This document shows positions 19,896 through 38,000 of a stretch of DNA of 38,127 bases, piece after piece. The DNA is taken from assembly GCA_016212565.1 (NCBI GenBank), contig JACRFY010000295.1:1-38127 (forward strand), given 5' to 3'. Position 1 is the stretch's first letter, and every line of letters starts with the position of its first letter. The translations under genes were made by a program, and so were the position numbers. A model generated the notes under the pieces. It saw only the letters and a program-made list of their open reading frames with translations, was not told the DNA's origin and searched no databases. The DNA comes from Magnetospirillum sp. GTDB lineage: Bacteria > Pseudomonadota > Alphaproteobacteria > Rhodospirillales > Magnetospirillaceae.

Positions 19896-22800
19896 ATGTT
19901 CGACATCTTCATCAAACGTCCCGTTCTTGCCACGGTGATCAGCCTGCTGATCCTGTTCGTCGGCCTGCGCGCGCTGATGCTGTTGCCGGTGCGCCAGTAT
20001 CCGGAAATGAAGAACACGGTGATCACCATCACCACCACCTTTCCCGGCGCCGATTCGGACCTGATCCAGGGCTTCATCTCCCAGCCGATCCAGAAGGCGG
20101 TGGCCACGGCCTCGGGGCTCGACTACCTGACCTCGCGCTCCGCGCCGGGAATGAGCGAGATCAAGGCCTACGTCCGCCTCAACGAGGATCCGGACGCGGC
20201 GATGACCGAGGTGATGAGCAAGGTCAACGAGGTGCGCTCGGTTCTGCCGCGCGGCATCAACGATCCGGTGATCAAGAAGGAGACCGGACAAACCTTCGCC
20301 TCCGCCTACCTTGCCTTCTCGTCCGACGTCCTCAGCCAGGAGCAGATCACCGACTACGTCAACCGGGTGATCCAGCCCAAGCTTGCCGCCGTCCCCGGCG
20401 TGGCCAATCCCGAGGTGTTCGGCGGCCAGAAGTTCTCCATCCGGGTGTGGATCGACCCCGAGAAGCTGGCCCAGTTCGGGATGACCGCCGACGACGTGCG
20501 GGTGGGGCTGACCAGCAACTCCTATTCCTCGGCCGCCGGCTCGACCAAGGGCGCCTGGGACGTCATCAACACCCAGGCCGACACCGACCTCAAGTCGGTC
20601 GACGAATTCCGTCGGCTGGTGATCCGCCACACCGGCGCACAACTGGTGCGCCTGGGCGAGGTGGCCGAGGTGTCGATGGGCGCCGAGAACGACGACATGA
20701 GCGTGTTCGCCAGCGGCGACCGCGCCATCTTCGTCGGCGTCTACACCACCCCCGAGGCCAATCCGCTGACCGTCATCCGCCAGGTGCGCGACGAGGCGCT
20801 GCCGCAGATCCGCGCCCAGTTGCCGGCGGGCATGCGGGCGCAACTGGCCTACGACTCGACCGTTTTCATCCAGGCCTCGATCGACGAGGTGGTGAAGACC
20901 ATCCTCGAAGCGGCGCTGATCGTCATGGTGGTGATCTACGCCTTCATGGGCTCGGCGCGCTCGGTGGCGATTCCGGTGGTGACGGTGCCGCTGTCGCTGG
21001 TCGGCGTCGGCCTGTTCCTGCTGGCGCTGGGATTCTCCATCAACCTGCTGACCCTGCTGGCGATGGTGCTGGCCATCGGGTTGGTGGTCGACGACGCCAT
21101 CGTGGTGGTCGAGAACGTCCACCGCCACATCGAGGACGGGCTGGCGCCCATCGAGGCGGCGCTGAAGGGAACGCGGGAAATCGCCGGGCCGGTGATCTCG
21201 ATGACCATCACCCTGGCCGCCGTCTATGCGCCCATCGCCTTCATGGGCGGGCTGACCGGCTCGCTGTTCAAGGAATTCGCCCTGACCCTGGCCGGCGCGG
21301 TGGTGATCTCCGGGGTGGTGGCGCTGACCCTGTCGCCGATGATGAGCTCGCGCATTCTCAAGCACGAGACCGACCGCAAGGGCCTGGCGGCGCGCATCGA
21401 TGCCGGCTTCGAGCGGGTGCGGCGCAGCTACGAGCGCATGCTCGCCGCCTCGCTGGCCGACCGGCCGACGACATTGCTGTTCGCCGCCATCGTCATGGTC
21501 AGTCTGCCGTTCCTGTTCCTCGCCGTCCCCACCGAGCTGGCGCCGGAGGAAGACCAGGGGGTGGTGTTCACCGCCTTCAACGGCCCGGCCTCGGCCAACA
21601 CCGCCTTCATGGAGGTGTTCAGCCACGAGATCGACCGCAAGCTGCGTGATTTCCCCGAGGTGCGCGACACCTTCCTGATCACCGGCCTCGGCACCCCCAA
21701 CCAAGGCTTCGGCGGCGCGGTGTTGAAAGGCTGGGACGAGCGCGACCGGGCGGCCAAGGAGCTGACGGCGGCCTTCCAGCAGACGATGAACACCGTTTCG
21801 GGGGTCAAGGCTTCGGTGTTCCCGCCGTCGCCATTGCCCGGCTCGGACGGTTTGCCGGTGATGTTCGTCATCTCCTCGACCGCCGGCACCACCCAGCTTC
21901 AGGAGGTCGGCGACGAGATGGTACGCCGTGCCACCCAGGCCGGCATGTTCGCCTTCATCGACGCCGATCTCAAGGTCGAGAGCCCGCAGACGCGCGTCGA
22001 CATCGACCGCGACAAGGCGGCCGCTTACGGCATCACCATGCAGCAGATCGGCGACGCCTTGGCGACCATGACCGGCGGCAACTACGTCAATCTGGTCAAT
22101 CTTCAGGGCCGCTCGTATCAGGTCATTCCCCAGGTGCCGCAGGAATACCGCCTCGACCCCCGCCAACTGGGCCGCTTCCACGTCAGGGCCTCCAGCGGCG
22201 AGTCGATTCCGCTGTCGTCGCTGGTGACGCTCGGCCATGCGGTGCAGCCGGTGTCGCTCAACCAGTTCAATCAGTTGAATTCGGTGACCATTTCGGCCTT
22301 TCCCATGCCCGGGGTCAGCCTGGGCCAGGCGTTGACCTTTCTGTCCGACACCGCCAAGCAGGTGTTGCCGCAAGGCTTCGCCACCGATAGCGCCGGGCAG
22401 TCGCGCCAGTACCTTCAGGAAGGCAACGCCCTGATGGTGACCTTCGCCTTCGCCCTGCTGATCATCTTCCTGGTCCTGGCGGCGCAGTTCGAGAGTTTCC
22501 GCGATCCGCTGGTGATCCTGGTCTCGGTGCCGCTGTCGATGTGCGGGGCGTTGATCCCGCTGGCGCTGGGGGCGGCGACGATGAACATCTACACCCAGGT
22601 CGGACTGGTGACCCTGATCGGCCTGATCACCAAGCACGGCATCCTGATCTGCGAGGTCGCCCGCGAGCGCCAGCGCCACGACGGCCTGTCGCGGCTGAAG
22701 GCGGTGCAGATCGCCGCCGGCCTGCGCCTGCGCCCGATCCTGATGACCACCGCGGCGATGGTCGCCGGCCTGGTGCCGCTGCTGTTCGCCTCGGGAGCGG

Positions 22801-29395: not shown

Positions 29396-29423
29396 GCCCT
29401 CGCCCTCGCAGGGGAGAGGGGGC
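29396..29423. terminator. Imperfect GC-rich hairpin between convergent genes
   Basis: GCCCTC at 29396-29401 can pair with GAGGGGGC (29416-29423) with a bulge. This is the only structured sequence in the 40-nt gap between the convergent small secreted protein and hydrolase genes. It is similar in composition to the CCCTCTCCC repeats elsewhere in the window. Confidence 0.3.
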
Positions 29424-29433
29424 TTATCCGTCT

Positions 29434-30123
29434 TCAACCCACCGCTGCGGCCAATTCCGGCTCGAGCACCACCGGGTGCGGCGCGTCGGCGACGGCTTCG
29501 CTCAGATACTCCTCGACCATCGTGCCCAACTGGTCGAGCTGGGTGCCGAAGAAATGGTTGGCTCCCTCGATGGTCTGATAGCGCACCTTGATGTTGCGCT
29601 GGGTCGACAGCTTCTGCGCCAGCTTGGCTGCCGAAGCCTCGGGGACCATTTCGTCGGCGGTCCCGTGGACGATCAGGCCCGAGGACGGGCAGGGGGCGAG
29701 GAAGGTGAAGTCGTAGTGGTTGGCCGGCGGCGCCACCGAGATGAAGCCGTCGATCTCCGGCCGCCGCATCAGCAATTGCATGCCGATCCAGGCCCCGAAC
29801 GAGAACCCGCCCACCCAGCAGGCGGCGGCGTTGGGGTTGTAGGTCTGCGCCCAGTCCAGCGCCGACGCCGCATCCGACAATTCGCCCTGGCCATTGTCGA
29901 AGCGCCCCTGGCTGCGGCCAACGCCGCGGAAGTTGAAGCGCAACGTCGAAAAGCCACGCCTGACGAAGGCGTGATAGAGGGCATAGACCACTTTGTTGTT
30001 CATCGTCCCGCCATGCTGCGGGTGAGGATGAAGCAGCAGCGCGATCGGTGCAGTCGGGGAGCGTCCGTGATGATAGCGCCCCTCAAGACGGCCGTCGGGT
30101 CCATTGAAAATCACTTCGGGCAT
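29434..30123 (-). CDS. Alpha/beta hydrolase (COG2945-like)
   Basis: The 229-aa protein has a compact alpha/beta-hydrolase fold with triad candidates S108 (GGFSFGAWIG), D157 (VHGTADEMVP) and H190 (EGANHFFG). The oxyanion region LLLHPHPQHGGTMNNKVV and the RFNFRGVGRSQG motif are characteristic of the small COG2945 hydrolases. The substrate is unknown. No signal peptide is present. I chose ATG 30123 because AGGA lies 9 nt upstream; a further in-frame ATG at 30168 would add 15 unconserved residues. It is divergent from the cysE-isc operon, with a 213-nt shared upstream region. Confidence 0.85.
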   Translation of the reverse strand: MPEVIFNGPDGRLEGRYHHGRSPTAPIALLLHPHPQHGGTMNNKVVYALYHAFVRRGFSTLRFNFRGVGRSQGRFDNGQGELSDAASALDWAQTYNPNAAACWVGGFSFGAWIGMQLLMRRPEIDGFISVAPPANHYDFTFLAPCPSSGLIVHGTADEMVPEASAAKLAQKLSTQRNIKVRYQTIEGANHFFGTQLDQLGTMVEEYLSEAVADAPHPVVLEPELAAAVG

Positions 30124-30218
30124 CTGTCGTCCTGTGCAGTCCGATTGGACCGGCGCCGCGGATACCATACCCGCGGTGTCGGAGAATAAGCGGCGAACGA
30201 ATTGGCAGCGAGCCGGTC

Positions 30219-30243
30219 AAACTTGACCAGCCTTGTCGGGCAT
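30219..30243 (+). promoter_or_regulatory. Putative type-1 IscR-binding site
   Basis: Aligned without gaps to the E. coli type-1 IscR consensus (ATASYYGACT-RWWW-YAGTCRRSTAT), 18 of 25 positions agree by my count, including both half-site cores: CTTGAC at 30222-30227 and GTCGGG near 30235-30240. The site overlaps the -35 and spacer of the operon promoter, the right place for repression by [2Fe-2S]-IscR. An additional GGTCAA-AC-TTGACC inverted repeat (30215-30228) overlaps it. I recalled the consensus from memory; binding is inference. Confidence 0.5.
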
Positions 30244-30251
30244 CCTATATT
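30223..30251 (+). promoter_or_regulatory. Sigma70-type promoter of the cysE-isc operon
   Basis: TTGACC (30223-30228) and TATATT (30246-30251) are separated by exactly 17 nt, one of the best housekeeping promoter matches in the window. The predicted start is near 30258, giving an 80-nt leader to cysE. That leader has a hairpin AGGATGG/CCATCCT (30273-30279 with 30290-30296). Confidence 0.65.
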
Positions 30252-30336
30252 CACCTTCGATGCATCGCAGGAAGGATGGCTTCCCCCCTCCATCCTGGGG
30301 TGCGGTTAGAAACCACAATTTAGCATATTGCCCGCC

Positions 30337-31086
30337 ATGGTTTTCAAGAGACTTCGCGAAGATATCGCTTCCATCCGCCAGCGGGACCCCGCTGCCCATT
30401 CCTGGCTGGAGGTGGTGCTGTGTTATCCCGGCTTCCATGCGGTGGTGATCCACCGGTTGGCGGCGGGGTGCTGGCGGCACGGATTCAGGCTGCTCGGCCG
30501 TGTGCTGTCGCATATGGCCAAGGTCTTTACCGGCATCGAAATTCATCCCGGTGCGAGCATCGGCCGGCGCTTCTTCATCGACCACGGCACCGGGGTGGTG
30601 ATCGGCGAGACGGCGGTGGTGGGCGACGACGTGACCCTCTACCACGGCGTCACCCTGGGCGGCACCTCGCTGCACAAGGGCAAGCGCCATCCCACGCTGG
30701 AGAACGGCGTGATCGTCGGCTCGGGGGCCCAGGTGTTGGGGCCGATCACCGTCGGCGAGGGTGCTCGCATCGGCGCCAATGCGGTGGTGCTGACCGACGT
30801 CCCGGCAGGGGTGACCATGGTCGGTATCCCGGCGCGGATGGTGATGCGGCGGCAAAAGCCGCAGGAGCCGGAATTCTGCGCCTACGGTGTCTCTACCGAG
30901 GAACTGCCCGATCCGGTGGCCCGCGCCATCGATTCGCTGCGCAGTCAGGTGGGCGCGCTGATGGCTCGGATCGCCGAGTTGGAGACGGAACTGCACGGCG
31001 CATCGTCCATCGACGGTCGCGGACCGCGGGTGATCGCCGGCAAGGACGACGACGAAGAAGGCCCGCCCTCGGCGGCCACACTGTGA
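30337..31086 (+). CDS. cysE: Serine O-acetyltransferase
   Basis: The 249-aa enzyme makes O-acetylserine from serine and acetyl-CoA, the committed step of cysteine synthesis. A helical N-terminus (about 1-60) leads to a left-handed beta-helix of hexapeptide repeats: [40 protein letters not shown], then [21 protein letters not shown] and a loop ending in [20 protein letters not shown]. The likely catalytic histidines H83 and H103 are present. It is of the shorter EpsC/CysE2 type, with a charged C-terminal tail. ATG 30337 is preferred over TTG 30328, but neither has a strong RBS. It is first in the Fe-S operon, so cysteine supply and desulfurases would be co-expressed. Confidence 0.92.
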
Positions 31087-31089
31087 AGA

Positions 31090-31102
31090 CCGCCTCGGGC
31101 GG
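31090..31102 (+). other. Hairpin in the cysE-iscR gap
   Basis: CCGCC-TCG-GGCGG forms a 5-bp stem in the 42-nt space between cysE and iscR, just before CGACCTTT. It may be an RNA processing or weak attenuation point that separates cysE from isc expression; this is speculative. Confidence 0.3.
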
Positions 31103-31128
31103 CGACCTTTGAATAGGGAGACACGGAC

Positions 31129-31596
31129 GTGAAGCTCAGCACCAAAGGACGCTATGCGGTGATGGCGATGGTGGATCTGGCCGGCCACGCGCAGGGAAGC
31201 CCGGTGGCGCTCGCCGACATCGCCGAGCGCCAGGAGATTTCGCTGTCCTATCTGGAGCAGCTGTTCGGCAAGCTGCGCAAGGGCGGTCTGGTCAAGAGCG
31301 TGCGCGGTCCCGGCGGCGGCTATCTCCTCGCTCGTCCGGCGCCGCAGCTGCGCATCTCGGACATCATTCTGGCGGTCGACGAGCCGATCCAGACCACCCG
31401 CTGCGCGCCGGGAACGCCGGCCGGCTGCCACAACAACAAGGGCCGCTGCCTGACCCACGATCTGTGGGAGGAACTGGGCAACCAGATCTACCTCTACCTG
31501 TCGTCGGTGTCGCTGGCCGACGTCTGCGAGCGGCGCATCCTCGGCAGTTCGGGCGTGTTTCACGGCACCGCCGGCAGTGCGGTGGCCGCGCAGTAG
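31129..31596 (+). CDS. iscR: Rrf2-family Fe-S regulator IscR
   Basis: The 155-aa regulator has a winged helix (MKLSTKGRYAVMAMVDLA, LADIAERQEISLSYLEQLF) and the wing RGPGGGYLLARP. Its cluster ligands are C92, C100, C107 and H110 (RCAPGTPAGC, GRCLTHDLW). In E. coli IscR the ligands are C92, C98, C104 and H107, so the loop here is longer by two and one residues, but the Cys3-His set is complete. It should bind a [2Fe-2S] cluster and repress isc genes when Fe-S supply is adequate. GTG 31129 follows AGGGAGA. An IscR-like site lies in the promoter of its own operon, upstream of cysE. Confidence 0.92.
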   Translation: MKLSTKGRYAVMAMVDLAGHAQGSPVALADIAERQEISLSYLEQLFGKLRKGGLVKSVRGPGGGYLLARPAPQLRISDIILAVDEPIQTTRCAPGTPAGCHNNKGRCLTHDLWEELGNQIYLYLSSVSLADVCERRILGSSGVFHGTAGSAVAAQ

Positions 31597-31612
31597 CGTC
31601 GGAGTACGAGCC

Positions 31613-32746
31613 GTGGGCATCTATCTCGATCATAATGCCGGCGGACCGGTCCGCCCCGAGGTGGCGTCGGCGATGGCCGAGGCGCTGGCCGAGGGGGGGA
31701 ACCCCTCGTCGGTGCATGCCGGCGGCCGGCGTGCCCGGCGGCGGATCGAGGATGCCCGCGCCCAGGTGGCGGCGTTGATCGGCATCGCCCCGTCCGCCAT
31801 CGTCTTCACCTCCGGCGGCAGCGAGGCCAACGCCTTGGCGCTGAGAGGCTGTGGGCGGGAGCGGCTGCTGGTCTCTGCGGTCGAACATGCGTCGGTGCTG
31901 GAGTGTGGTGCGGCGGTCGAACGGATTCCCGTCGATGGCGCCGGCATCGTCGACCTCGTTGCCCTCGAACACCTGTTGGCCGGCGACGCGCGGCCGGCGC
32001 TGGTGTCGGTGATGCTGGCCAACAACGAGACCGGGGTGGTGCAACCGGTCGCTGCCGTGGCGGCGATGGCCCGGCGCTTCGGTGCCCTGGTTCACTGCGA
32101 CGCCGTCCAGGCTGCGGGGCGGATGGCGGTGGCGATGTCGGACCTGGCTGTCGATTTTCTGACACTGTCGGCCCACAAGATGGGCGGGCCGTCGGGAATC
32201 GGGGCGTTGGCCCTGCGCGACGCCGATTTTCCCCTGGCCCCGATCTTGCTGGGAGGCGGGCAGGAGCGCCGTCGCCGCGCCGGCACCGAAAATTTGTCGG
32301 GAATCGTCGGTTTCGGGGTCGCGGCGACCCTTGCGGGGGATGACGTGAGTACTGGAAATACCATATTAGAGATGTATCATCTGCGAGACGCTCTCGAACC
32401 CGTGGCGACGGCGCGGGTGCCGGGGGCGGTGGTGGTCGCGGCGGGCGCGGTTCGCCTGCCCAATACCACGTGCCTGGTCCTGCCCGAGGTGGCGGGGCAG
32501 ACGCAGGTGATGGCGCTGGATCTGGCCGGCATCGCGGTCAGCGCCGGTTCGGCCTGCTCGTCGGGCAAGGTGGGGGCGTCGCACGTGCTGGCGGCGATGG
32601 GGCTGGGGGGAATGGCGGGGTGCGCCATCCGTATCAGCCTCGGACGGTCCAGCCGGGCGGAAGAGGTGACGGCATTCGTCGATGCGTGGGCCGAACTGGC
32701 CGCGCGCAAGGGATTTGAGGTCAGACAGGCGGCCAAGGCCGCGTGA
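31613..32746 (+). CDS. Cysteine desulfurase of the NifS/IscS family (additional copy)
   Basis: The 377-aa class V aminotransferase-fold enzyme has the PLP-binding lysine K189 ([14 protein letters not shown]), H92 (EHAS), and the persulfide-forming C315 in a mobile loop ([17 protein letters not shown]). The N-terminal motif is [14 protein letters not shown], where IscS/NifS usually have NATTP. It is only distantly similar to the IscS that follows. Residues around 242-262 are encoded by an unusually AT-rich patch (32344-32390). GTG 31613 follows GGAG by 8 nt. It lies between iscR and iscS; a second desulfurase here may serve another sulfur acceptor. That is inference. Confidence 0.88.
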
Positions 32747-32762
32747 GCGAAGGGAATACGGC

Positions 32763-34013
32763 ATGACTGCGGTTGCCAACAACACCAAGATCGGGCGCGG
32801 TCCCGGCCAGCCGATCTATCTCGACTACCAGGCGACCACGCCCTGCGACCCGCGCGTGGTCGAGAAGATGATTCCCTATTTCACCGAGAAGTTCGGCAAT
32901 CCCCATTCGCGCAACCACCGCTACGGCTGGGAAGCCGAAGAAGCGGTCGAGGTCGGGCGCGAGCAGGTGGCGGCGATCATCGGCGCCGACCCCAAGGAGG
33001 TGATCTTCACCTCGGGGGCCACCGAGTCGAACAACCTGGCGATCAAGGGCGTCGCCCACTTCTACAAGGACAAGCGCGACCACATCGTCACCGTGGTCAC
33101 CGAGCATAAGTGCGTGCTCGATACCTGCCGTCACCTGGAACAAGAGGGATTCCGCGTCACCTACCTGCCGGTGGGGACCAACGGCCTGGTCGACCTCGCC
33201 CAACTGGACGAGGCGATCACCGACAAGACGGCGGTGGTTTCGGTGATGGCGGTCAACAACGAGATCGGCGTCATCCAGCCGCTGGCGGCGATCGGCGCGC
33301 TGTACCGCAAGAAGGGCGCCTTCTTCCACACCGACTGCGCCCAGGCGGTGGGCAAGATCCCGCTCGACGTCAACGCCATGAACATCGATCTGATGAGCAT
33401 CTCCGGCCATAAAATCTACGGACCCAAGGGCATCGGCGCCCTCTACGTCCGCCGCCGGCCGCGGGTGCGTCTGGTGCCGATGATCAACGGCGGCGGCCAG
33501 GAGCGCGGCATGCGCTCGGGTACCTTGGCCACCCCGCTGTGCGTCGGTCTGGGCGAGGCTTGCCGCATTGCCACGCTGGAGATGGGCGCCGAGGCCGAGC
33601 GGCTGCGCTCGCTGCGCGACCGCATGCTGAACGGAATCCGCGCTCGTCTGCCGGAGATCTACGTCAACGGCGATCTCGATCACCGCATTCCCGGCAACCT
33701 CAACATCTCGTTCGCCTTCGTCGAGGGCGAAGGGCTGATGATGGGGGTCAAGGATCTGGCGGTGTCGTCGGGCTCGGCCTGCACCTCGGCGTCGCTGGAG
33801 CCGTCGTATGTGCTGCGGGCGCTGGGGTTGGATGCCGAGATGGCTCACACTTCGCTGCGGTTCGGCCTCGGCCGTTTCACCACCGAGGACGACATCGACT
33901 ACGCCATCAACCACGTCGCCGAAGCGGTCGAGCATTTGCGTTCGATGAGCCCGCTGTGGGAAATGCATCAAGACGGGATCGACATCAAGTCGATCCAATG
34001 GGCTGCGCACTGA
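32763..34013 (+). CDS. iscS: Cysteine desulfurase IscS
   Basis: The 416-aa PLP enzyme removes sulfur from cysteine and passes it as persulfide to IscU. Motifs: [19 protein letters not shown] (18-36), catalytic H115 ([10 protein letters not shown]), PLP lysine K217 ([16 protein letters not shown]), [12 protein letters not shown], and persulfide cysteine C340 in [20 protein letters not shown]. The long loop around C340 and the C-terminal [15 protein letters not shown] tail, which in E. coli IscS contacts IscU, mark it as true IscS. An AAGGGA precedes ATG 32763. Confidence 0.96.
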
Positions 34014-34024
34014 AAGAGGACACC

Positions 34025-34411
34025 ATGGCTTACAGCGACAAGGTCATCGACCACTACGAGAATCCCCGCAACGTGGGCTCGATGAACAAGGATGACGCCC
34101 ATGTCGGTACCGGCCTGGTCGGCGCTCCGGCCTGCGGCGACGTGATGAAGCTGCAGATCAAGGTCAGCCCGGAAGGGATCATCGAGGACGCCAAGTTCAA
34201 GACCTTCGGTTGCGGCTCGGCGATCGCCTCGTCGTCGCTGGTCACCGAGTGGGTCAAGGGCAAGACTCTCGACGAAGCGGCAGCGATCAAGAACACCGAG
34301 ATCGCCGAGGAACTCGCCCTGCCGCCGGTCAAGATCCATTGTTCGGTTCTGGCCGAGGATGCTATCAAGGCGGCGGTGGCCGACTACAAGAAGAAAACCG
34401 GAGCCGGTTGA
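34025..34411 (+). CDS. iscU: Fe-S cluster scaffold IscU
   Basis: The 128-aa scaffold has all three ligand cysteines, C37 (PACGD, with D39), C63 (FGCGSAIASSS) and C106 (KIHCSVLAED), plus H105. The HscA-recognition motif LPPVK is intact at 99-103, matching the presence of hscA and hscB downstream. Clusters are built here from IscS sulfur and are released to IscA, ferredoxin and other targets with chaperone help. ATG 34025 is 11 nt after the iscS stop. Confidence 0.97.
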   Translation: MAYSDKVIDHYENPRNVGSMNKDDAHVGTGLVGAPACGDVMKLQIKVSPEGIIEDAKFKTFGCGSAIASSSLVTEWVKGKTLDEAAAIKNTEIAEELALPPVKIHCSVLAEDAIKAAVADYKKKTGAG

Positions 34412-34431: not shown

Positions 34432-34770
34432 ATGAACCAGAAGGCGCCTCTCACCATCACCGAAGCCGCCGCCGAGCGGGTCAAGGCCATGCTGGCCAGC
34501 CGCGGCAAGCCGTCGGTGGGGATCCGCATCGGCGTGCGTTCCAAGGGCTGCTCCGGCATGTCCTACACGCTCGAATACGCCGATGAGAAGACACCCTTCG
34601 ACGAGATCGTCGAGGACAAGGGCATCACGGTTCTGATCGATCCCAAGGCGACGATGTTCATCCTCGGCACCGAGATGGACTTCGTCGACGAGAAGCTGCA
34701 ATCCGGTTTCGTCTTCCGCAATCCCAACGAGAAGGGACGCTGCGGCTGCGGCGAATCCTTCCACGTCTGA
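34432..34770 (+). CDS. iscA: A-type Fe-S carrier IscA
   Basis: The 112-aa protein has the three conserved cysteines of A-type carriers: C40 (SKGCSGMSY) and C104/C106 (GRCGCGESFHV). It binds iron or a cluster and delivers Fe-S to apoproteins. Its position between iscU and hscB and the sequence SGMSYTLEYADEKTPFDEIV support IscA rather than ErpA or SufA. It starts 20 nt after iscU. Confidence 0.95.
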   Translation: MNQKAPLTITEAAAERVKAMLASRGKPSVGIRIGVRSKGCSGMSYTLEYADEKTPFDEIVEDKGITVLIDPKATMFILGTEMDFVDEKLQSGFVFRNPNEKGRCGCGESFHV

Positions 34771-34781
34771 TGGTTTGAGCG

Positions 34782-35405
34782 ATGAGTGTGGCCGCTGCTT
34801 CCCTTGCCGTGCATCCCTGCTGGTCCTGTAAGGGACCGGTAGCGACCCGCGCCCTGTTCTGTTCCGTATGCGGAGCGGTGCAGGGCCCGGGAGCGACGGA
34901 TCATTTCTCGCGGCTCGGCATGGTGCCGACCTTCGAGATCGATCGCGACGTCCTCGACCGGCAGTATTTCGGCTTCCAGCGCCGGCTGCACCCCGACCGC
35001 TTCGCCGCCAAGTCGCCGAAGGAGCGGATGCTGTCGCAGAGCCAGGCCACGGCGCTCAACGAGGCCTACGAGACGCTGAAGGACCCGCTCAAGCGGGCGG
35101 CCTATCTGCTCAAGATGCTCGATCATGCCGTCGACCTCGGCGCCTGCGGCACCATCAGCGACCCCGAGTTGCTGATGGAGCAGATGGAGAAGCGCGAAGA
35201 GATCGCCGAGGCCGAGACGGTCGCGGAAATCGCCACCCTGTCGGCGGCCGCCGATGCCGAGGTCCTGGCCTGTCAGTGTCACATCTCGGCCGCCTTCAAT
35301 GCCGAGGACGTCGACGAGGCGGCGCGACTGACGCTGCGGCTGAAATACCTCACCAAGCTGGCCGACGACGCGCGGGCGAAGAAGATCAGGTTGAGTCGGG
35401 GATAA
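34782..35405 (+). CDS. hscB: J-domain co-chaperone HscB with N-terminal tetracysteine motif
   Basis: The 207-aa co-chaperone stimulates HscA ATPase and brings IscU to it. Residues 13-30 carry two CxxC pairs (CWSC at 13-16, CSVC at 27-30), a zinc-ribbon-like knuckle absent from E. coli HscB but known in eukaryotic HSC20. The J-domain follows (about 40-110) with HPD at 70-72 (RRLHPDRFAAKSPKERMLSQ) and a C-terminal three-helix IscU-binding domain. ATG 34782 is 11 nt after iscA. A pair of inverted palindromic repeats lies between it and hscA. Confidence 0.94.
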   Translation: MSVAAASLAVHPCWSCKGPVATRALFCSVCGAVQGPGATDHFSRLGMVPTFEIDRDVLDRQYFGFQRRLHPDRFAAKSPKERMLSQSQATALNEAYETLKDPLKRAAYLLKMLDHAVDLGACGTISDPELLMEQMEKREEIAEAETVAEIATLSAAADAEVLACQCHISAAFNAEDVDEAARLTLRLKYLTKLADDARAKKIRLSRG

Positions 35406-35530: not shown

Positions 35531-35549
35531 AGAGGTGAAGGAACCACCC

Positions 35550-37445
35550 ATGCTGTTGCAGCTCCACGAGCCGGGCCAGTCGCCGGCTCCCCACGAGTCC
35601 GACCGCGGACTGGCCGTCGGCATCGATCTCGGCACCACCAATTCGGTGGTGGCGGTTGCCCGCGACGGTACCGCCGAGGTCCTGCGCGATGCCGACGGTG
35701 GCGGGCTGATCCCCTCGGTGGTCCATTACAGCGACGACGGCAGCGTCATCGTCGGCACTGCGGCCCGCGAGCGACTGCTCGACGAGCCGGACCGGGTGGT
35801 CAGCTCGATCAAGCGGCTGATGGGCCGCGGCCTCGAAGACGTCAAGAGCCTGGCCGGAACGCTGCCCTATACCGTCGAGCCGTCGCCCGAGGGCGGCATG
35901 GTGCGCCTGCGGGTTGCCGGGCGGGTGCTGACGCCGGTGGAGATTTCCGCCGACATCCTGCGCGCGCTCAAGGCCCGGGCCGAGGAGGCCCAGGGCAAGA
36001 CCGTCGACCGCGCCGTGGTCACCGTGCCGGCCTATTTCGACGATGCTGCCCGTACCGCCACCAAGGACGCCGCCCGCCTCGCCGGCCTGGAGGTGCTGCG
36101 TCTGGTCAACGAGCCGACCGCCGCGGCCTTGGCTTATGGCCTCGACAATGCTTCGGAGGGGCTGTACGCGGTTTACGACCTCGGCGGCGGCACCTTCGAC
36201 CTTTCCATCCTGCGCATGGAGAAGGGCGTCTTCCAGGTCAAGGCCACCGGCGGCGACGCCGCCCTGGGCGGCGACGACATCGACCACGCCATCGCCGAGC
36301 ACTTCCTCGCCGAGCGCGCCGCCAAGGTCGGCCCCCACACCATCACCGCCGGCGAGGCCAAGCAGGCGCTGATGGTCGCCCGCCTCGCCAAGGAGTGCCT
36401 GAGCCGCAGCCAGGGCGGCGATTGGGTGATGGAGGTCGACGGCAAGCCGTCCCGCCATTTCCTCGACCGTGCCACCTTGGATTCGCTGTCGACTCCCTTC
36501 GTCGAGCGCACCATCGCCATCTGCCGCGCGGTGGCCGAGGACGCCGGCATCGCGGTCGCCGACATTCACGGCGTGGTGCTGGTGGGCGGTTCGACCCGCA
36601 TGCCGCTGGTCCGTGCCCGCGTCGCCGAATTCTTCGGCAAGCCGCCGCTCGCCGACATCAATCCCGACGAGGTGGTGGCGGTCGGCGCCGCCTTGCAGGC
36701 CGAAGCCCTGACCTCGGGGTCCGACACCCTGCTGCTCGACGTTACGCCGCTGTCCTTGGGCATCGAGATCATGGGCGGGATCGTCGAGAAGGTGATTCCC
36801 CGCAACACCCCGATCCCGGTGGCGATGGCGCAGGAATTCACCACCTACCAGGACGGCCAGACGGCGATGTCGATTCATGTGCTCCAGGGCGAGCGCGAGA
36901 TGGTCGACCAGAACCGCTCGCTGGCCCGCTTCATCCTGCGCGGCATTCCGCCGATGACTGCCGGAGCGGGACGCATCCGCGTTACCTTCACCGTCGATGC
37001 CGACGGCCTGCTGACCGTGGCCGCCTCCGAGCAGACCACCGGCGTCGAGCAGAGCGTGGCGGTCAAGCCATCCTATGGGCTGACCGAGGACGAAATGGCC
37101 CATATGCTGCGCGATTCGCTCGAACATGCGCGCGACGACATGGCCTCGCGCCTGGTTGCCGAGGCGGTGGTCGAGGCCCGCCGGTCGATGCTGGCGGTGG
37201 CCTCGGCGTTGAAAGCCGACGGCGACCTCTTGTCGGATGACGAGCGAAAGGCTATCGATGCGGCCATGGAGCTGGTCGAGCGCTCTACCCACGGGACCGA
37301 CCGCGACGCGGTCAACGCCGCGGTCGAGGGGTTGGAGCAGGCGACCAAGGGCTTTGCCGAAAAGCGCATGGATCGGGGGATCCGCCAGGCGCTGGCCGGC
37401 GTGTCCGTCGACCGGCTCGACGACGCCCTGGGGGGCGGCGCGTAA
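35550..37445 (+). CDS. hscA: Hsp70-family Fe-S chaperone HscA
   Basis: The 631-aa Hsp70 paralogue is specialised for IscU. The N-terminal ATPase domain has [69 protein letters not shown] and [14 protein letters not shown]. The substrate-binding domain begins near [20 protein letters not shown], a motif typical of HscA. It is slightly longer than E. coli HscA (616 aa). I chose ATG 35550 after AAGGA (35538-35542); a GTG at 35535 adds five residues and overlaps the end of the repeat region. Confidence 0.96.
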
Positions 37446-37470: not shown

Positions 37471-37809
37471 ATGCCCAAGATGACATTCATCCAACCCGAC
37501 GGGACCCGCCTCGATGTCGAGGCCCCGGAGGGGCTGTCGGTACTGGAAGTGGCCCACCGCAACAAAATCGAGCTGGAGGGCGCCTGCGAGGGCTCGCTGG
37601 CCTGCTCGACCTGCCACGTGGTGGTGGCTCCGGAATGGTACGACAAATTGAACCCGGCCAGCGAAGACGAAGAAGACATGCTCGACCTGGCCTTCGGTCT
37701 GACCTCGACCTCGCGCCTGGGCTGCCAGATCATCATGAAGAACGATCTCGACGGCCTCACCGTGACCCTGCCGGCGGCGACGCGCAACATGATGGTCGAC
37801 AAGAAATGA
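37471..37809 (+). CDS. fdx: Isc-type [2Fe-2S] ferredoxin
   Basis: The 112-aa adrenodoxin-type ferredoxin has cluster ligands C39, C45, C48 and C85 ([22 protein letters not shown]), the C-x5-C-x2-C pattern of vertebrate-type ferredoxins. The acidic region [17 protein letters not shown] is the usual redox-partner interface. In the Isc system it supplies electrons for cluster assembly on IscU. The stop overlaps the iscX start by 4 nt (ATGA). Confidence 0.96.
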
Positions 37810-38000
37810 AGTGGACCGACGTCGTCGATATCGCCATCGCGCTGGAAGAGGCACACCCGGAGGCCGACAACGTCAACCTCCGCTTCACCGATCTGCACCA
37901 ATGGGTGTGCGCGCTGGACGGTTTCGACGACGACCCGGCCAAGTCGAACGAGAAGATCCTCGAAGCGATCCAGATGGCCTGGATCGACGAACGGGATTAG
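37806..38000 (+). CDS. iscX: IscX (YfhJ) small acidic Fe-S assembly protein
   Basis: The 64-aa acidic protein matches Isc[41 protein letters not shown] and [16 protein letters not shown]. IscX binds IscS and iron and modulates cluster assembly. It is the last gene of the isc operon, translationally coupled to fdx, and is followed by a strong hairpin. Confidence 0.95.

Follow-up and report, generated by a model that had tools for sequence, protein, structure and literature searches.

The stretch of DNA analysed here, from now on called the window, comprises 38,127 nucleotides of contig JACRFY010000295.1 from Magnetospirillum sp. (GenBank assembly GCA_016212565.1). On its plus strand the genes are ordered cysE-iscR-nifS'-iscSUA-hscBA-fdx-iscX, with a hydrolase gene located divergently upstream of cysE:

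29434..30123, minus strand: alpha/beta hydrolase, divergent (PF12146 and other profiles), adjoining the site in relatives
30337..31086, plus strand: cysE, serine O-acetyltransferase (TIGR01172, 247.1 bits, above cut-off)
31129..31596, plus strand: iscR (TIGR02010, 188.1 bits, cut-off 207.55; residues given below)
31616..32746, plus strand: NifS-like cysteine desulfurase paralogue, nifS' (profile matches)
32757..34013, plus strand: iscS (TIGR02006, 698.7 bits)
34025..34411, plus strand: iscU (PF01592)
34432..34770, plus strand: iscA (PF01521)
34782..35405, plus strand: hscB (TIGR00714, above cut-off)
35535..37445, plus strand: hscA (TIGR01991, above cut-off)
37471..37809, plus strand: fdx, [2Fe-2S] ferredoxin (PF00111)
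37806..38000, plus strand: iscX (PF04384)

The NifS-like paralogue between iscR and iscS scores below the curated cut-offs of both the NifS and the IscS models. The score of the operon IscR lies below the NCBIfam equivalog cut-off of TIGR02010 and above the cut-off of the Rrf2 superfamily, and the protein is therefore named from its residues, its operon and the motif. It is 47% identical to IscR of E. coli, contains all five residues by which the E. coli protein contacts DNA (S40, Y41, E43, Q44 and R59, as listed in PMC11475020) and has C92, C100, C107 and H110, three Cys and one His, as its cluster ligands.

When analysing the intergenic region between the hydrolase gene and cysE the following elements were identified:

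30162..30186, plus strand: degenerate candidate for a distal type-1-like operator, at the position found in relatives and with a spacing of 57 bp to the proximal one downstream
30215..30228, no strand assigned: inverted repeat GGTCAA-AC-TTGACC, named in the original prediction and without conservation
30219..30243, plus strand: candidate proximal type-1 IscR operator (18/25 to consensus, conservation, top match of its own genome)
30223..30228, plus strand: -35 element TTGACC, within the upstream half-site of the operator
30246..30251, plus strand: -10 element TATATT, with TA at the corresponding position of 54 of 56 representative loci
30321..30326, plus strand: TAGCAT, a conserved TANCAY element 16 nt before the cysE start

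The original prediction proposed an IscR-type site overlapping a promoter TTGACC-N17-TATATT in front of a cysE-headed isc operon, and this promoter (30223–30251) is indeed the sole σ70-type match within 29400–31600, with a predicted transcription start near 30258. The 25-mer at 30219–30243, AAACTTGACCAGCCTTGTCGGGCAT, shares 18 of its 25 bases with the type-1 IscR consensus of E. coli, the same number as first claimed when recomputed. A type-1 site is defined, in PMC8561392, by TTGAC in one half, CCGAC (complement) in the other half and AT-rich ends. The window site, AAACTTGACC-N6-GTCGGGCAT, shows the partly symmetric 25 bp motif expected of this type, the consensus of the relatives' sites being ATACTTGACC-N6-GTCGGGCAT, and it spans the -35 element and most of the spacer of the predicted promoter, an overlap that is likewise expected of a type-1 operator.

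The E. coli consensus alone was rejected as a test of significance, 18/25 being at chance level for a window of such size. Dinucleotide shuffles of the window gave a mean of 0.80 matches of at least 18/25 per window, a second 18/25 match is located at 20595, and when the intergenic region 30124–30336 was shuffled 41 out of 3000 sequences reached 18. The claim thus needed a comparison with relatives, and the support beyond chance for the putative window site is comparative. The repeat GGTCAA-AC-TTGACC was found as originally described but did not stand as a conserved element; a perfect copy (GGTCAA-N2-TTGACC) is confined to the window and, among the 77 site-bearing relatives, to L018, and the repeat was rejected as a separate operator.

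A first set of 80 loci, nearly all from Rhodospirillales or their relatives, was retrieved with the IscR of the window, and since L015 and L071 were incomplete 78 loci could be evaluated, with cysE upstream of iscR in 75 of them. The E. coli consensus served as the seed of a weight matrix; after leave-one-out refinement its final form was built from 55 distinct sites, leaving out seven loci whose sites were weak or missing, and for the scoring of each locus every training site within 5 mismatches was removed. Lack of conservation in relatives had been named beforehand as counter-evidence; instead the site was found at the promoter with at least 10 bits in 77 of the 78 evaluable loci, with at least 12 bits in 76 and at least 15 bits in 75, a conservation in front of an iscR-containing operon that is another mark of a type-1 operator. 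In 77 of 78 loci the site also outscores all other places of the locus on both strands, and elsewhere the best match attains 15 bits in 4 of 78. The exceptions are L043, which is without a site, and L030 with a weak one of 11.1 bits.

Among 56 representatives (at most 75% identity over 90 bp, chosen for carrying the site, which excluded L043 alone) the information lies mainly within the 25-mer and the -10 element, the 30 bp upstream holding at most 0.34 bits, and TTGAC and the -10 element are the best conserved parts. This is what would be expected if merely a strong TTGACC/TATATT promoter were conserved, the likeness to an IscR site being incidental because TTGAC belongs to both motifs. As the matrix had been seeded, a promoter-only version without any IscR term was also run, and the best plain σ70 promoter in the 520 bp upstream proved to be this promoter in 50 of the 56 representatives. 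When the 53 representatives with a 17 bp spacer were aligned on the promoter only, ATAC still appeared before the -35 element and GTCGG together with AT in spacers that are otherwise free; since the motif moreover singles out the iscR operators of E. coli and other iscR operons (below), conservation of the promoter alone is very unlikely.

A sequence-only model was made from the sites of 54 relatives with the window's site left out. In its own 4.0 Mb genome the window site was the top match (E 8e-4, the next at E 4), so that the model gave no further type-1 IscR targets in this genome beyond the cysE promoter, while a looser pattern gave six further places with two mismatches compared with 3 per strand for a reversed-pattern control. 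When the own genome and 20 relatives were searched, a match was located before cysE and/or iscR in 15 of the 21 genomes, being the best or tied-best match of the genome in 14 of those 15; in five of the 21 the model search gave nothing at E ≤ 1, and in one (G017) the sole match lies elsewhere. Among 142 genomes of the class seven have a match at E ≤ 0.02, under filters strict enough to lose weak matches. One of the seven is the own genome; of the remaining six, three carry the match before cysE-iscR, two before iscR in loci where cysE could not be found, and the last, L139, at another place. When 50 kb of E. coli K-12 were searched, both iscR operators came out on top (E 8.5e-5 and 1.9e-3), the third match having an E of 0.87.

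The genome encodes five Rrf2 proteins, and a regulator of this family other than IscR might in principle use the site. The other four are 21–35% identical to the operon IscR, and it is the latter that combines the contact residues of E. coli with close identity to its IscR, which makes another Rrf2 regulator extremely improbable. The conservation, the held-out ranking, the matches to the E. coli iscR operators and the position in front of iscR where cysE is missing together indicate that 30219–30243 is most likely a type-1 IscR operator, lying over the promoter of cysE-iscR-nifS'-iscSUA-hscBA-fdx-iscX. The original prediction of an IscR-type site and a cysE-headed isc operon is thereby supported: the operator is conserved along with the promoter and the order of the genes, it matches experimentally established operators of E. 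coli and Pseudomonas aeruginosa, and the IscR has the E. coli contact residues together with the three Cys and one His.

The gap between cysE and iscR has a median of 35 bp (75 loci), with a 4 bp overlap in 14 of the 75, and none above 12 bits lies between the two genes among the matches listed, which comprise at most the five best of each locus. In L031, L056 and L075 cysE was not found and the site is instead located 190, 214 and 229 bp before iscR, respectively, so that the putative operator keeps its place at the start of the operon whichever gene comes first.

Secondary matches within the loci cluster at one distance from the proximal site. Using a symmetrised matrix, built from proximal sites only, the range from -260 to -26 was scanned in 57 loci (the 56 representatives and the window) and the best upstream match fell at -55 to -57 in 28 of them, the lowest-scoring of which may be chance, compared with about 0.7 expected, and at -67 in three. 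In the window the distal site is the best of 235 upstream offsets, yet it scores 1.0 bit and may be weak or lost. A second set from other genomes, which cannot count as independent of the first 80 loci, consisted of 108 loci (107 evaluable, 101 with a proximal site of at least 12 bits). Loci that matched the first set, or another locus of the second, at 80 or more of 210 bases were removed, which left 38 independent ones. There the best upstream match in the range -160 to -26 was located at -55 to -58 in 20 loci, at -66 to -68 in six, at -77 to -79 in two and at -45 to -47 in one. Even the untrained E. coli consensus had its best match at -58 to -55 in 14 of the 38.

In the 95 loci a best match at -55 to -58 was observed in 48, whereas column-permuted matrices gave a mean of 4.5 and a maximum of 15. 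At a threshold of 6 bits or more the in-register offsets, which were partly chosen post hoc from the first set, contain a match in 31 of 95 loci compared with none of 95 when shifted by 5 bp. The twelve strong offsets outside 55–58 are phase-coherent at 10.5 bp (R 0.89, p ~7e-5, relatedness ignored). The distal motif is type-1-like with CCGA halves, and conservation around it is largely confined to its 25 bp. In many relatives there is thus a second, putative type-1-like operator 56 ± 1, 66–68 or 78 bp upstream of the proximal one, a new finding that was replicated in the 38 independent loci.

A contiguous pair of the A/B type was not seen, no upstream match of at least 3 bits occurring at offsets -15 to -26 in the 95 loci and one at -27; the second sites sit at 55–57, 66–68 and 78 bp rather than at 25 bp, and the spacings 25, 56, 67 and 78 bp are separated from one another by nearly whole numbers of turns of the helix. 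The strengths of proximal and distal sites are not correlated (rho 0.01, n = 95), which, like the low score in the window, counts against the distal operator, and compensation of a weak proximal by a strong distal site was on this ground rejected. In L059, L072, L084, L138 and L202 a second type-1-like site is located at about +28 to +30, over or after the -10 element, instead of upstream (21.8 bits in L059 and 17.9 in L202).

Almost every representative has an alpha/beta hydrolase gene oriented divergently to cysE-iscR, and so do L031 and L075, which are without cysE. The distal site lies in this divergent intergenic region, often 35–60 bp from the hydrolase start, and could serve the hydrolase gene, being unrelated to repression of cysE-isc. 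In the 28 loci its spacing to the proximal site has an SD of 0.63 bp compared with 21 bp to the hydrolase start, the remaining distances are helical steps, and the distal site is retained in L056 and L075, both without cysE, so that this explanation appears unlikely.

Another function to consider is activation, with IscR bound at about -83/-94 from the predicted start and acting via the alpha C-terminal domain. At class I CRP promoters the activator positions form a helical series, and the predicted distal positions fit it. IscR is described in PMC8561392 as activating some E. coli promoters, but the same source gives an optimal -35 element as abolishing the need for IscR activation at E. coli PydiU (Chowdhury et al., PMC8561392), and the promoter found here is near-consensus, the good -35 element arguing for repression. 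The distal motif is also type-1-like and as such tied to the cluster-bound form, which should at the same time repress at the proximal site. An activating role is for these reasons improbable, and the distal site is most likely an auxiliary operator that would strengthen or tune repression.

Taken as a whole, a type-1 IscR operator on the cysE-isc promoter, repression through it and an auxiliary distal operator very probably account jointly for the observations. When clusters are plentiful, [2Fe-2S]-IscR would occupy the proximal operator and exclude RNA polymerase, and the cysteine supply (CysE giving O-acetylserine) and the cluster assembly would drop together; when clusters are short, the block would be relieved and both would rise. 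The distal operator, about 56 bp upstream (66–68 or 78 bp in some loci, about 29 bp downstream in a few), would aid or tune this repression. From this we infer the direct Fe-S feedback on cysteine synthesis that had been suggested. It is conceivable, though somewhat doubtful, that IscR of the Rhodospirillales uses the two phased type-1 operators (56, 67 or 78 bp apart) to bind two dimers that cooperate over or around the polymerase.

When compared with known systems, iscRSUA of E. coli shares with the window the 25 bp motif (on the Rhodospirillales matrix its sites A and B reach 34.3 and 30.2 bits), the operon and the regulator, and likely also the repression. It differs in that its operon is without cysE and its iscR operators are contiguous, 25 bp apart, while the relatives studied here have a proximal site and a phased one about 56 bp away. 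Site B of the isc promoter in P. aeruginosa shares the motif, scoring 28.0 bits against this matrix, and the weak site A scores 8.4. In PMC6599224 site B is footprinted, covers the promoter, is needed for repression as the primary operator and assists binding to site A, to which the distal operator described here can be likened. The P. aeruginosa sites are contiguous, judging from the primers printed in that paper, and located before iscR rather than cysE.

Among alphaproteobacteria, IscR of Caulobacter crescentus similarly has three Cys and one His and regulates its own operon, but this is an isc-suf operon and the type I motif reported is rich in A and does not resemble the motif described here (PMC11475020). 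In Rhodobacter sphaeroides the IscR sites also mostly overlap the -35/-10 region, and the operon has several promoters; according to PMC4618611 and PMC6956336 it differs by a 19 bp Iron-Rhodo-box, a single-Cys IscR and an isc-suf operon that starts with iscR. A literature search of titles and abstracts, covering few subscription journals, returned nothing on phased remote cooperation of IscR or on an IscR-controlled isc operon headed by cysE. What is novel is a variant in which cysE heads the operon and a putative second operator is set apart and phased. It would subject the step feeding cysteine synthesis, along with the assembly of Fe-S clusters, to a single feedback across a large alphaproteobacterial group that includes magnetotactic, phototrophic and nitrogen-fixing genera. 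The fixed helical spacing offers a natural series, from 25 bp in E. coli to 56, 67 and 78 bp in the loci studied, for probing how IscR dimers cooperate among themselves and with RNA polymerase. The alphaproteobacterial motif also enables detection of IscR sites in genomes where the E. coli consensus is at chance level.

The leader of cysE contains TANCAY at exactly -16 from the start codon in 28 of 56 distinct leaders. The element is rare elsewhere; among 183 genes predicted by means of codon-position G+C in 253 kb of the window's genome, cysE alone has TANCAY at -16. A Shine-Dalgarno-like sequence was seen in 9 of 56 cysE leaders compared with 67 of 71 iscR leaders. TANCAY may be the -10 box of a second, near-leaderless promoter or else an unknown translation signal. 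A second promoter would leave cysE a supply independent of IscR, and were cysE mainly transcribed from it, there would be little IscR control of the cysteine supply. The leaders compared show no conserved -35 box upstream of TANCAY, and the upstream promoter is conserved far better, which makes transcription mainly from TANCAY quite unlikely.

A riboswitch or attenuator in the leader was also considered and rejected, there being no Rfam match in the window, a folding z-score of -1.37 and an alignment little conserved except for the start region and a C-run. The latter (CCCCC) is located mid-leader in many cysE leaders of the Magnetospirillum group (the window and L006–L023), the RNA being otherwise poorly conserved. 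By eye TANCAY could also be seen in L031 (TAACAT) and L075 (TATCAC), both without cysE.
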